Shown: positions 2,840 to 13,591 of the stretch, one piece after another
Numbering within the stretch: the stretch's first letter is position 1
Layout of the letters: each line of letters opens with the position of its first letter
Assembly: GCA_030448025.1 (NCBI GenBank)
Contig: JAUJNQ010000004.1
Location: forward strand, 1-48,758
Direction: 5' to 3'
Length of the DNA: 48,758 nucleotides
Source of the DNA: Acidimicrobiales bacterium
GTDB taxonomy: Bacteria; Actinomycetota; Acidimicrobiia; Acidimicrobiales; GCA-2861595
Translations under genes and position numbers: made by a program
Notes under the pieces: generated by a model
Told to the model about the DNA's origin: nothing
Seen by the model: only the letters and a program-made list of their open reading frames with translations
The model's database searches: none

Positions 2840-4402
2840 ATGTGCGGAATCGTCGGGATATACGGCCAGCAGGACGCCCAGGCGGGGCTTCGGATGCTCC
2901 GCCGCCTTACCCACCGCGGTCCTGACGGCCAGGGTGCGGTGGCGCTGCCCTCGGCCTGGCTCGGTCACCGGCGCCTCTCCATCGTCGACCCACGCGGGGG
3001 CAGGCAGCCCCTCACCTCGGAGGACGGGCGCCTCCATCTCGTCGGGAACGGGGAGATCTACAACTACGACGACCTTCGCAGCATGCTCGGCGAGGTGGTG
3101 CTCACCAGCGCCTCCGACAACGAGGTGGCGCTGAACCTGGTTGAAGAGAACGGTCCGGCGGCCCTGGAGGAGCTGGCGGGGATGTTCGCCTTCCTCATGG
3201 CGGGGGAGTCGTATTCCTTCATTGCCGCCCGAGACCCGGTCGGCATCAAGCCCCTTTACTGGGCCCACCGGGGCGACGAATGGCGTTTCGCGTCCGAGAT
3301 AAATGCATTCGATGCCGACTGGCAGTCGGAGGTGGAGTTCTTCCCCCCCGGTCACTACTGGACGCCCGAAGAAGGCCTGGTCCGTTTCGCCAACCCTGTG
3401 CCCACGGGCCGCCAGGAGCGATTCGCGCCCCCCGAGAGCCCCGATGCCGAGCCACCGCCCGAGCTCATCGAGGAGCTGCGCTCCACGGTGGTCGCCGCCA
3501 TCGAGCGGCACATGATGGCCGACGTACCGGTCGGGGTGTTCCTGTCGGGGGGTCTCGACAGCAGCATCGTGGCCGCCATCGCAGCCGAGCACTATGGCCG
3601 GCGGGGCGAGGCGCTCAAGACGTTCGCCGTCGGCTCCGAAGGCAGCGCCGACCTCGAGTTGGCCCGGCTCGTGGCCGACCGGCTCGGCACCGAGCACCAT
3701 GAGCGTGTGTTCACCGCCGAGGAGGCGCGAGACGTTCTGCCCGAGGTGGTCCGGATCATCGAGTCCTACGACCCCTCGCTGGTCCGCAGCGCGGTGCCGA
3801 ACTACTTCCTATCCGAGATGGCGGTCCAGAGCGTGAAGGTCGTGCTAACCGGGGAGGGCGCCGACGAGCTGTTCGCCGGGTACCAGTACCACAGCGCCAT
3901 CGAAGGACACGCTGACCTCCAGGACGAGATAGTCCGCGGTGTGGAGACCCTCCACGGGCTCAACCTCCAGCGGTGCGACCGGGTCACCATGGTCCACGGC
4001 TTGGAGGCGCGCGTGCCGTTCCTCGATCTCGACGTGATCGCCCTCGGCCTTTCCATCCCCGCCGGTTGGAAGCTGCGAGGCGACGACCGGCCCGAGAAAT
4101 GGCTCCTCCGCCGTGCGTTCGAGGGAATGGTGCCCACCGAAGTGCTGTGGCGCCAGAAGGCCGAGTTCGGCGACGGCTCGGGCGCGGCAATGGCTCTGAT
4201 CGACCAGGCCTACGTCGATGACGACGAGGATCGGCTCACCGGCGCAGGCAACGGAACGGCCAACGCCAAGTCTGCCAACGGAAAGTCGCACGGGGTGCCC
4301 GAGTTTCGCTCCGAGGAAGAGGCGGCCTACTACCGCATCTTCCACGCCCACCTGGGCGGCGTGTCCCCGGAGCGGACCATCACGATGTTCGCCACCGCTT
4401 GA
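2840..4402 (+). CDS. asnB: Glutamine-hydrolysing asparagine synthase-like amidotransferase
   Basis: 520 residues. Residues 1-190 are a class II glutamine amidotransferase domain, with the nucleophile Cys2 after Met removal ('MCGIVGIYG'), 'LGHRRLSI' and 'NGEIYN'. Residues from about 205 are the ATP-pyrophosphatase synthase domain, with the PP-loop SGGLDSS at 236-242. The family transfers ammonia from glutamine to an adenylated carboxylate, usually aspartate, but many relatives act on other carboxylates. The start is weakly supported by GGAAG upstream. The next genes on the strand are a diiron oxygenase-like protein and a glycosyltransferase, so the true substrate may be a small metabolite rather than aspartate. 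Family secure; substrate open. Confidence 0.9.
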   Translation: MCGIVGIYGQQDAQAGLRMLRRLTHRGPDGQGAVALPSAWLGHRRLSIVDPRGGRQPLTSEDGRLHLVGNGEIYNYDDLRSMLGEVVLTSASDNEVALNLVEENGPAALEELAGMFAFLMAGESYSFIAARDPVGIKPLYWAHRGDEWRFASEINAFDADWQSEVEFFPPGHYWTPEEGLVRFANPVPTGRQERFAPPESPDAEPPPELIEELRSTVVAAIERHMMADVPVGVFLSGGLDSSIVAAIAAEHYGRRGEALKTFAVGSEGSADLELARLVADRLGTEHHERVFTAEEARDVLPEVVRIIESYDPSLVRSAVPNYFLSEMAVQSVKVVLTGEGADELFAGYQYHSAIEGHADLQDEIVRGVETLHGLNLQRCDRVTMVHGLEARVPFLDLDVIALGLSIPAGWKLRGDDRPEKWLLRRAFEGMVPTEVLWRQKAEFGDGSGAAMALIDQAYVDDDEDRLTGAGNGTANAKSANGKSHGVPEFRSEEEAAYYRIFHAHLGGVSPERTITMFATA

Positions 4403-4498
4403 AGCACCAGGCGATCCTGGCCCGCACGCCGCCGACGTAGAGTTGCCTTCCTGCGGGCCTCCTAGCCGGAGCCCACCCGCGAGGAGGAGGAACACGAG

Positions 4499-5566
4499 GT
4501 GGCTGAGCAGATTCTGGAGCGCGCCCGACCGGTGGGACACCGAGAGCCTCCCGGCCCCACGCCGCCACAGCCTCGCGGCCCGCTGAGCGCCCACGTGCTG
4601 GAGCACCTGCTCCAGGCCCCTCACGAGGTTCCACCGGCACCACCGGCCGAGGACGACCCTCTCTGGGGCGACGACGCCCAGCTCGCCCTGTATTGCTGCT
4701 ACGAGCTGCACTATCGGGGCATTTCCGGCGTGGATGACGGTTGGGAGTGGGAACCGTCGCTGCTGGCCCTGCGTCAGGACCTGGAGGCGGCGTTCGAGCG
4801 CCGGCTGGAGGACGAGATCGGCGTGGTTCGCCCCTCGGGCGACGTGGAGGCGGACCTGCTAGGGACGATCGCCGGCGGCAACGGCCCCTCGCTGTCGGCC
4901 TATCTCAACGAGCGAGGCACGCTCGAGGCCATGCGGGAGTTCTCCATCCATCGCTCTGCGTACCAGCTCAAAGAAGCCGATCCGCACACTTGGGCCATCC
5001 CGCGCTTCGACGGCAGCGCGAAGGCCGCGCTCATCGAGATCCAGCTCGACGAGTACGGGGGGGGCGAGGAGGCGGCCATGCACTCCACCCTGTTCGCTCG
5101 GAGCATGGAGGCGCTGGGCCTGGACAGCACCTACGGGGCCTATCTCGACTGCCTGCCGGGAACCACGCTGGCCACCACCAACGTGATCTCGCTGTTCGGC
5201 CTTCACCGGCGCCGGCGGGGCGCGCTCATCGGGCACCTGGCCGCCTTCGAGGCCACGTCGGTCACCCCGATGACCCGCTATCAGGACGCAATGCGCCGGC
5301 TGGGCATCGGGCCGGAGGGACAACGGTTCTACGAGGTGCACGTGTCCGCCGATGCTCATCACGAGGTCGTCGCCTTACGGAACATGGCCGCAGGCCTGGC
5401 CTCGGCGGAGCCGGACCTGGCGGCCGACATCGTGTTCGGGGCTCGGGCCATGATGCTCGTGGAAGAGGGCTTCGCCCACCACCTGATCGACTCGTGGACC
5501 GACGGGATGTCATCGCTCCTGGTTGACCCGGCCGTGGCCGTCGTCAGCCGTGGAGACGGCACCTGA
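4499..5566 (+). CDS. Heme-oxygenase-like diiron redox enzyme (iron-containing redox enzyme family)
   Basis: 355 residues from a GTG preceded by GAGGAGGAGG with 8-nt spacing. The protein belongs to the heme-oxygenase-like diiron oxidase superfamily. Residues consistent with the six iron ligands are all visible: E185, H195, E251, then H281-x3-D285-x2-H288 on the last helix. Characterised members such as UndA, SznF and CADD use a diiron centre and O2 for C-C cleavage or N-oxygenation. The N-terminal 40 residues are Pro-rich and probably disordered. The gene overlaps the following glycosyltransferase by four bases, so the two are probably translationally coupled. Ligand assignment is by motif spacing, not structure. 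Substrate unknown. Confidence 0.82.
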   Translation: MAEQILERARPVGHREPPGPTPPQPRGPLSAHVLEHLLQAPHEVPPAPPAEDDPLWGDDAQLALYCCYELHYRGISGVDDGWEWEPSLLALRQDLEAAFERRLEDEIGVVRPSGDVEADLLGTIAGGNGPSLSAYLNERGTLEAMREFSIHRSAYQLKEADPHTWAIPRFDGSAKAALIEIQLDEYGGGEEAAMHSTLFARSMEALGLDSTYGAYLDCLPGTTLATTNVISLFGLHRRRRGALIGHLAAFEATSVTPMTRYQDAMRRLGIGPEGQRFYEVHVSADAHHEVVALRNMAAGLASAEPDLAADIVFGARAMMLVEEGFAHHLIDSWTDGMSSLLVDPAVAVVSRGDGT

Positions 5567-6621
5567 CCGCCCAACCTCTCGGGGAGCCGCTCAGGGAACG
5601 CCGTTCCCTCAGCTACGTCCTCCCACTCCGCCGGTGGCGCGCCGAGCGCGACGACGAGCTGGTCGACTACCTCTGCTGGCTCCACAGCCGGGCGGACACC
5701 ATCGTCGTCGACGGTTCGGGGCCCGAGATCTTCGCCGCTCACCACCGGACGTTCGGTTCAGTGGTGCGCCACATCCCGGTCGACGCCGACCTGACAGGCC
5801 GTTACGGCAAGGTCAATGGAGTGGTGACCGGCGTGCGGGCCGCCACGCACGAGCAGGTGGTGATCGCAGACGACGACGTCCGCTACGACGACGAGGGCCT
5901 CGAGCGGATGTCCACGCTGCTGGGCCAAACCGAGCTGGTCCGGCCGCAGAACTACTTCGACCCGCTTCCCTGGCACGCCAAGTGGGACACGGCTCGCAGC
6001 CTGGTCAACCGAGCGTTCGGGGCGGACTTCCCCGGCACGCTGGGTCTGCGAAGAAGCAGCCTGTTGACGGCGGGCGGCTACGACGGGGACTGCCTGTTCG
6101 AGAACCTCGAGCTGATACGAACCGTGGAGGCCGTGGGTGGCCGGGTCCTGAGCCCTTTGGACTTCTACGTGCGGCGCCTGCCGCCTCCAGCGGGTCACTT
6201 CTGGTCACAGCGGGTCCGTCAGGCCTATGACGACTTCGCCCTCCCGGCCAGGATGGCAGCCGAGCTGGCGGTCGCTCCCGGTGTGGTTGCCTTGGGTCGC
6301 AAGGATGCCCGGGCCCTCTTGGCCGCCGCCGTTCTCACCGTGGCCACGGCCGAGGTTGGCCGGCGGCGGGCTGGGGGAGCGACGGTCTTTCCGGTCACCT
6401 GCTCCCTCATGGCGCCGGCGTGGCTCTCTGAGCGCGGCATCTGCGCCTGGCTGGCGGTGTGGCAGCGTCTGGCGCAGGGAGGCGTGCCCTATGCCGGCAC
6501 CGTGCTGTCCAAGGCGGCCAACCCCCGCCGAGTGCTCGAGCGGCGGCTGGAGTCCGTCAGGCGGTCCGGCGGAGGTGCTCAGTCTCGATGTCCTGAGCCA
6601 TCTGCAAGTCCTTCTCGGTGA
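5563..6621 (+). CDS. Family 2-like glycosyltransferase, apparent CTG start
   Basis: About 352 residues if it starts at CTG 5563, which overlaps the preceding TGA as CTGA. No ATG, GTG or TTG lies in frame between the upstream in-frame stop (5524) and GTG 5755, yet the sequence before that already encodes the expected first GT-A strand ('SYVLPLR' ... 'TIVVDGSG'). Starting at 5755 would therefore remove the nucleotide-binding strand. The metal-binding motif 'ADDD' is at residues 103-105 of the long form. The second half has two hydrophobic stretches that may be membrane-associated. The 3' end overlaps the convergent pterin dehydratase gene by 65 bp. It is last in the asnB cluster. Donor and acceptor sugars unknown. 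Confidence 0.72.
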   Translation: MTAQPLGEPLRERRSLSYVLPLRRWRAERDDELVDYLCWLHSRADTIVVDGSGPEIFAAHHRTFGSVVRHIPVDADLTGRYGKVNGVVTGVRAATHEQVVIADDDVRYDDEGLERMSTLLGQTELVRPQNYFDPLPWHAKWDTARSLVNRAFGADFPGTLGLRRSSLLTAGGYDGDCLFENLELIRTVEAVGGRVLSPLDFYVRRLPPPAGHFWSQRVRQAYDDFALPARMAAELAVAPGVVALGRKDARALLAAAVLTVATAEVGRRRAGGATVFPVTCSLMAPAWLSERGICAWLAVWQRLAQGGVPYAGTVLSKAANPRRVLERRLESVRRSGGGAQSRCPEPSASPSR

Positions 6622-12801: not shown

Positions 12802-13591
12802 ATGACCGGAACCCACGACCGCGGCCATGACGGCTCTGGCGATCACGTCGTGGCCTCGCAGGTGGCCGTGGAAGCCGGCCAGCTCCTGGTGTCGCTCCGC
12901 GACCGTCTCATCCGAGAGGGCGCCGAGCGGTCCGTACTCGCGGCCGAGGGAGACCGGCGCTCGCATGAGCTCATCGCCGCTTCACTGGCGGCGTCTCATC
13001 CTCATGACGCCGTTCTCTCCGAGGAAGGGGCGAATGACCGGACCCGGCTGCACGAGCAGCGGGTGTGGGTGGTGGACCCGCTCGACGGCACCAGGGAGTT
13101 CGCCGAAGGACGGTCTGACTGGGCGGTCCATGTCGCCCTGGTCGTCGAACACCACCCTGTGGTGGGCGCCGTGGCCCTACCCGGCGACGGACTGGTGTTG
13201 GACACGTCCCGACCTCCTGTCGTGCCACCGGCGGGGGATCGACGTCTCCGGTTGGTCGTCAGCCGCACACGCCCGCCCGAGTTGGCCCGGTCCGTGGCCG
13301 AGCGGCTTGGGGCCGACCTGATCGGCATGGGCTCCGGCCGGGGCCAAGGCCATGGCAGTCGTGCGGGGCGAAGCTGACATCTATCTCCATGCCGGCGGTC
13401 AGTACTAGTGGGATTCGGCTGCTCCGGTGGCAGTTGCACTCGCTGCTGGGCTGCACGCTTCCCGCCTCGACGGCTCACCGTTGCGGTACAACCAGCCAGA
13501 CGCCTACCTGCCCGACCTGCTCGTATGCAGGACGGAGTTGGCTGCCCCGGTCTTGGAGCACTGCGAGGACCTCGCTGCCGCCTCCGAGTAG
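12802..13591 (+). pseudogene. CysQ-type 3'(2'),5'-bisphosphate nucleotidase, frameshift and stop
   Basis: Residues 1-175 in the first frame are a good inositol-monophosphatase-fold protein: 'LSEEGAND' (metal-binding Glu-Glu) and 'VWVVDPLDGTREFAEG' (the DPLDGT metal motif). An extra base near 13,334 shifts the frame. The next frame continues with 'AGAKAMAVVRGEADIYLHAGGQY', then hits TAG at 13406-13408 where the family has Glu, and reads on with '[25 protein letters not shown]' to TAG 13589-13591. A frameshift plus a nonsense codon make true decay more likely than sequencing error. The intact enzyme recycles the PAP by-product of sulfate assimilation. Confidence 0.82.

Follow-up and report, generated by a model that had tools for sequence, protein, structure and literature searches.

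What does a heme-oxygenase-like diiron protein (HDO) do when its gene runs directly into that of a glycosyltransferase (GT)? The question is raised by contig JAUJNQ010000004.1 of an Acidimicrobiales bacterium (assembly GCA_030448025.1), the first 48.8 kb of which (48,758 nucleotides) form the window analysed here. The host genome comprises 2.7 Mb and is 98% complete; its nearest named relatives are metagenome-assembled genomes (MAGs) labelled Actinomycetota or Acidimicrobiales. A preliminary description of the window had pointed to an asnB-like gene (2840-4402), a heme-oxygenase-like diiron gene (4499-5566) and a GT2-like frame running to 6621, and had proposed that the three products make, oxidise and then glycosylate an amide or amine. 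The + strand carries all three genes at these positions, each with Pfam matches. The chances appear about even that two of them, HDO and GT, constitute a coupled operon in which an N-hydroxylating, seven-ligand HDO acts with a membrane-type GT2 of the same pathway, the substrate and product being putative.

The association of the two genes was surveyed in 396 Actinomycetota genomes, each at least 90% complete. HDO was found in 93 and GT in 18 of them. Fifteen of the 18 GT genomes hold an HDO, and in 13 the two genes adjoin (co-occurrence, Fisher p 6e-8, relatedness ignored). GT adjoins HDO at 21 of 80 named loci; these include tandem, convergent and divergent arrangements as well as the reversed order with GT upstream, and at most tandem loci the HDO stop and the GT start overlap as NTGA. 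Distances among the HDOs are correlated with those among the GTs (Mantel r 0.59, p 1e-4), and 15 changes of GT linkage are needed on the HDO tree. The co-occurrence, the overlap and the correlated distances support an HDO-GT pair conserved as a unit across many Actinomycetota, and this part of the preliminary description is upheld by the neighbourhood analysis. The association is new and widely kept; the kinds of enzyme in it are already known.

The features of the HDO gene, all on the + strand, are as follows.

4481-4490, +: purine-rich, ribosome-binding-like gaggaggagg, 8 nt before the HDO start (sequence reading)
4499-5566, +: HDO, heme-oxygenase-like diiron N-oxygenase-type protein, 355 aa, GTG start (PF14518, AlphaFold model, structural matches)
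4973-4975, +: E159, predicted seventh ligand (extra carboxylate), equivalent to SznF E189 (phmmer alignment to SznF; invariant in 96 of 96)
5051-5083, +: E185 and H195, predicted core helix 1 ligands, equivalent to SznF E215 and H225 (SznF alignment, conservation)
5249-5251, +: E251, predicted core helix 2 ligand, equivalent to SznF E281 (SznF alignment, conservation)
5339-5362, +: H281, D285 and H288, predicted core helix 3 ligands of the HxxxDxxH motif, equivalent to SznF H311, D315 and H318 (SznF alignment, conservation)

The protein matches Haem_oxygenas_2 (PF14518) at 6.4e-54 and has both the heme-oxygenase-like helical bundle and the core of three His and three carboxylates, including HxxxDxxH, that define the HDO superfamily. 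In the phmmer alignment all seven ligands fall on those of the central HDO domain of SznF, the streptozotocin N-nitrosourea synthase, at a constant offset of 30 (SznF numbering from PMC11611611 and PMC11705231), and the seven positions are unchanged in 96 of 96 sequences. Six of them had been named correctly in the preliminary description; E159 had been overlooked. The extra Glu, at the position of SznF E189 on auxiliary helix 2, marks the 3H/4C (SznF/RohS) subgroup, which was first recognised in SznF and is estimated to hold about a quarter of HDOs (PMC13108848). RohS has an extra Glu too, E93 (PMC11611611). By its alignment the window HDO is a predicted seven-ligand 3H/4C protein, of the type seen in the N-oxygenases SznF and RohS.

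The AlphaFold model of HDO has a pLDDT of 90. Its closest overall match is the lysine N6-oxygenase HrmI (Z 34.3, root-mean-square deviation 2.1 over 303 residues), followed by SznF (Z 28.6; Foldseek 5e-10) and the 2-aminoimidazole N-oxygenase RohS (Z 28.1). FlcD (Z 25), CADD (Z 20) and UndA, BesC and PolF (Z about 17) all rank below these. The predicted fold is thus closest to three N-oxygenases. The ligand site in the model was judged by helix placement and by superposition on SznF and HrmI, in place of inter-ligand distances. SznF is also the best sequence match in the PDB (6.9e-12). The likeness has its bounds: identity to SznF is about 20% and to HrmI and RohS 14-18%, HrmI is a six-ligand enzyme, HrmI and RohS belong to different pathways, and the partner of the window HDO is a GT. 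The C-terminal mono-iron cupin domain of SznF is missing from HDO, which ends at residue 355 after the bundle, and hence no N-N rearrangement is expected.

A replacement of HDO in one genus bears on its chemistry. The three surveyed GT genomes that lack an HDO match all fall in this genus, where GT lies within a methyltransferase-GT-GntA-DUF1989 operon at 6 of 6 readable loci. Three GntA proteins were tested and reached 275-289 bits (cut-off 145), and the GntA-linked GTs form a supported clade nested in a supported group with HDO-linked GTs. By these trees and scores, the same GT lineage appears to have exchanged HDO for a GntA-type heme guanidine N-hydroxylase of the YqcI/YcgG family. Such enzymes (GntA, AglA) are heme proteins unrelated to HDO and have no member in the window; here they occupy the place of HDO beside the same GTs. 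They hydroxylate guanidine nitrogens of arginine derivatives, the substrate of wild-type AglA being an aminomethylphosphonate-linked arginine (PMC12866846), and SznF also N-hydroxylates a guanidine (PMC13108848). Taken together, the exchange and the guanidine chemistry of SznF make N-oxygenation, and less surely a guanidine substrate, the best reading.

The GT frame required a decision on its start codon. Its features are:

5563-6621, +: GT2/GT21-like glycosyltransferase with C-terminal hydrophobic helices, 352 aa (PF13506/PF13641/PF00535; GT-A model)
5563-5566, +: CTGA, the GT CTG start over the HDO TGA stop, predicted translational coupling (comparison with relatives)
5869-5877, +: DDD, residues 103-105, metal/nucleotide DxD motif, D103 and D105 invariant (family alignment)
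6100-6105, +: E180-N181, invariant EN where GT2 enzymes usually have ED, possible base (26 of 26; N aligned to the second D of the PcManGT ADD)

No ATG, GTG or TTG is found in the frame from the upstream stop to 5761, and translation from 5761 would leave the GT-A domain without its first strands. Most tandem relatives have a four-base overlap (ATGA, GTGA or TTGA) between HDO stop and GT start; CTGA is found in the window genome, its sister species and two other lineages. The sequence GGAG lies at 5552-5555, 7 nt upstream of the CTG. Since relatives share the four-base overlap and the conserved N-terminal motif SYVLPLR comes after the CTG, the gene was read as 5563-6621, translationally coupled to HDO; comparison makes CTG 5563 the most likely start. 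The overlap and the GT2-like class given in the preliminary description stand, with the start corrected accordingly.

Pfam matches of this GT to GT21/GT2 are weak but real (5e-5), and 17 of 20 family members match. The model (pLDDT 77) has a GT-A core, the DDD motif and C-terminal hydrophobic helices; structurally it is closest to hyaluronan synthase (Z 18.6), PcManGT (Z 16.5) and cellulose synthase (Z 16.3). PcManGT was matched by profile as well (1.2e-4), and a PDB sequence search with the GT by itself gave nothing useful. The GT-A core and the C-terminal membrane-type helices are shared with PcManGT, hyaluronan synthase and other membrane GT2 enzymes. The GT-A fold and DxD motif are those of GT2/GT21; the ED catalytic-base motif is replaced by EN in 26 of 26 sequences, and the chain is short.

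Other genes also recur beside HDO. A CDGSH gene is found in 77 of the 93 HDO genomes and in 70 of the 303 others, and lies less than 3 kb from HDO in at least 44 genomes. Its linkage requires only 3 changes on the HDO tree, and the large clade that contains the window HDO has no such linkage. The CDGSH [2Fe-2S] protein is likely the electron donor of HDO in other lineages. A HemK2/MTQ2-type methyltransferase recurs beside HDO, as does a YbdK/GCS2 carboxylate-amine ligase, the latter mostly in Solirubrobacterales; a second class I methyltransferase recurs beside the HDO-GT pair at about 10 loci. The window genome has a 57% homologue of this class I methyltransferase and two GCS2 genes, all unlinked to HDO, and matches to the HemK2-type methyltransferase that are below the cut-off only. 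With GT, CDGSH, the HemK2-type methyltransferase and GCS2 set aside, at most 3 of the 139 neighbours sampled had any one family in common. Conserved actinobacterial neighbourhoods, which the preliminary description had mentioned, do occur: one joins HDO with CDGSH, the HemK2-type methyltransferase and the YbdK ligase, the other HDO with GT and the other methyltransferase.

In the mechanism proposed, HDO would activate O2 and most likely N-hydroxylate a small polar substrate, for which a guanidino (arginine-derived) group is the leading candidate. The membrane-associated GT2-type enzyme, acting in the same pathway, would probably glycosylate either the N-oxygenated intermediate or one linked to the membrane. 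The class I methyltransferase is probably a further member of this pathway, its gene being linked in relatives and unlinked in the window genome. The steps differ in their certainty. N-hydroxylation by HDO is probable, glycosylation of the HDO product by GT is plausible at somewhat less than even chances, and guanidine as the substrate is more tentative still. The unusual N-O chemistry foreseen in the preliminary description gains support from the predicted seven-ligand set, the N-oxygenase-like fold and the exchange of partners.

Several points weigh against this mechanism. The chemistry of the HDO superfamily is varied, and N-oxygenation need not require the seventh ligand, which the N-oxygenase HrmI lacks. 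The GT carries EN where active GT2 enzymes usually carry ED. The replacement by GntA counts as one event in one genus. A search of the window genome for a CDGSH protein detected none. At 42 surveyed loci of HDO relatives no surveyed partner lies nearby; thus GT is not essential to HDO function.

A broader scheme is speculative and rather unlikely as a whole: an undescribed pathway, spread across Actinomycetota, in which HDO or the interchangeable heme YqcI/YcgG enzyme would N-hydroxylate an arginine-derived guanidine, which a dedicated GT2 would then glycosylate to N-hydroxyguanidine glycoconjugates, CDGSH serving as the dedicated redox partner of HDO in many lineages. No paper describing the HDO-GT, partner-swap or CDGSH associations was found in the literature searched. 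Of the more than 10,000 known HDOs, few have an assigned substrate; the widespread subgroup described here has recurrent partners. With the coupled GT, the exchange for a guanidine N-hydroxylase, which narrows the chemistry, and the CDGSH proteins, the reaction, the substrate class and the electron donor become open to direct testing.

Among the alternatives, the one that survives best, itself unlikely, is that HDO is an amine or fatty-acid C-C/C-H oxidase of the UndA, BesC, AetD or PolF type and that the seventh ligand is no sign of N-oxygenation. All such reactions occur in the superfamily, most members of which are uncharacterised (PMC13108848). Against this, AetD has no extra Glu, and its substrate binds at Fe1, as in other six-ligand HDOs of which substrate-bound structures exist (PMC13108848, PMC11611611). 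UndA, BesC and PolF also rank structurally under the N-oxygenases (Z about 17 vs 28-34), and the exchange of HDO for a guanidine N-hydroxylase beside the same GT lineage argues for the N-hydroxylating HDO.

A role in stress protection is less probable again. Here HDO would act like DtpC of Acinetobacter in desiccation or oxidative stress, and GT would supply a protective glycan or glycolipid. DtpC, an HDO whose gene is transcribed together with katE, holds peroxide in check in dried cells (PMC13232832), and several HDOs of actinobacteria have genes for sigma factors, STAS, GAF-ANTAR or CsbD proteins or gas vesicles nearby. In the distant control set, however, sigma-factor and anti-sigma kinase families are just as common, and no stress genes directly adjoin the window HDO-GT pair. 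DtpC, set against the window HDO by its description, differs in its katE co-transcription and in having no GT. A stress-island context was rejected after comparison of neighbour families near and far from HDO, which gave no clear excess.

The three-gene route of the preliminary description, amidation by an AsnB-type enzyme followed by diiron oxidation and glycosylation, is very unlikely. The gene concerned is:

2840-4402, +: asnB, asparagine synthase B, 520 aa, judged to lie outside the conserved unit (NF006949 score; genus-limited linkage)

It lies on the same strand as HDO, 96 bp apart, the arrangement is kept in the sister species, and in Solirubrobacterales a different amide ligase (YbdK/GCS2) stands beside HDO. 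However, asnB adjoins HDO only in the window genus, and AsnB was ruled out as a pathway member on this ground; the description had itself named lack of co-conservation as an outcome that would speak against it. The protein matches Asn_synthase (4.8e-76) and GATase_7, passes the asparagine synthase B equivalog NF006949 (499.8 vs a cut-off of 499), and keeps in alignment the motifs of E. coli AsnB, with the Cys nucleophile after Met1 (MCGIVGI), as expected of an asparagine synthase B. It is the sole asnB match in the genome. With an ordinary score and motifs, a single genome copy and genus-only linkage, asnB was set aside as a probable housekeeping gene; its product is probably an ordinary asparagine synthetase unrelated to the HDO-GT pair. 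Least probable of all, by a little, is that HDO and GT are mere neighbours with no common pathway: most HDO loci are without GT and the linkage is patchy on the tree, but it occurs in several orders and orientations, with the four-base start-stop overlap and correlated divergence.

Individual HDO loci show further arrangements. In one single-contig genome (L132:8483-15000) a series of overlapping GT9, SDR, PfkB/cytidylyltransferase, SIS and GT4 genes, resembling a heptose-type sugar-nucleotide set, closes with the HDO-GT pair. A Kitasatospora plasmid (L147:2770-6828) carries YbdK ligase, dimethylargininase, HDO, CDGSH and HemK2/MTQ2 methyltransferase genes in that order, beside SpoIIE/STAS/CsbD stress genes. 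The dimethylargininase beside this HDO points, as a single case, in the direction of guanidine; as a general HDO partner it was rejected, since the survey of loci showed it at a single one, from Kitasatospora. The Curtobacterium plasmid pW21 (62 kb; L148:4824-6133) has a minimal two-gene HDO-CDGSH operon with overlapping ends, and on a Gordonia plasmid (L156:4627-5667) the HDO homologue is annotated as two coding sequences, probably a broken copy. Frankia HDOs (L092, L094, L099, L100, L108, L121, L123) have a conserved 240-aa protein upstream with weak similarity to PrmC-like methyltransferases. In Acidimicrobiaceae MAGs (L059, L065, L069, L088, L093), some of them from peatland (palsa, bog), HDO has Nramp-type metal transporter genes nearby.

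Elsewhere in the window, a lactate/malate dehydrogenase gene (1184-1980, +) is apparently frameshifted. Frame 1184-1951 holds its N-terminal domain and frame 1387-1980 a C-terminal-like part (HIAGEHGDTEIALWSS), a split that could be attributed to an assembly error or a pseudogene. An inositol-phosphatase-like open reading frame at 12802-13377 (+) seems to be cut short, perhaps by another frameshift.

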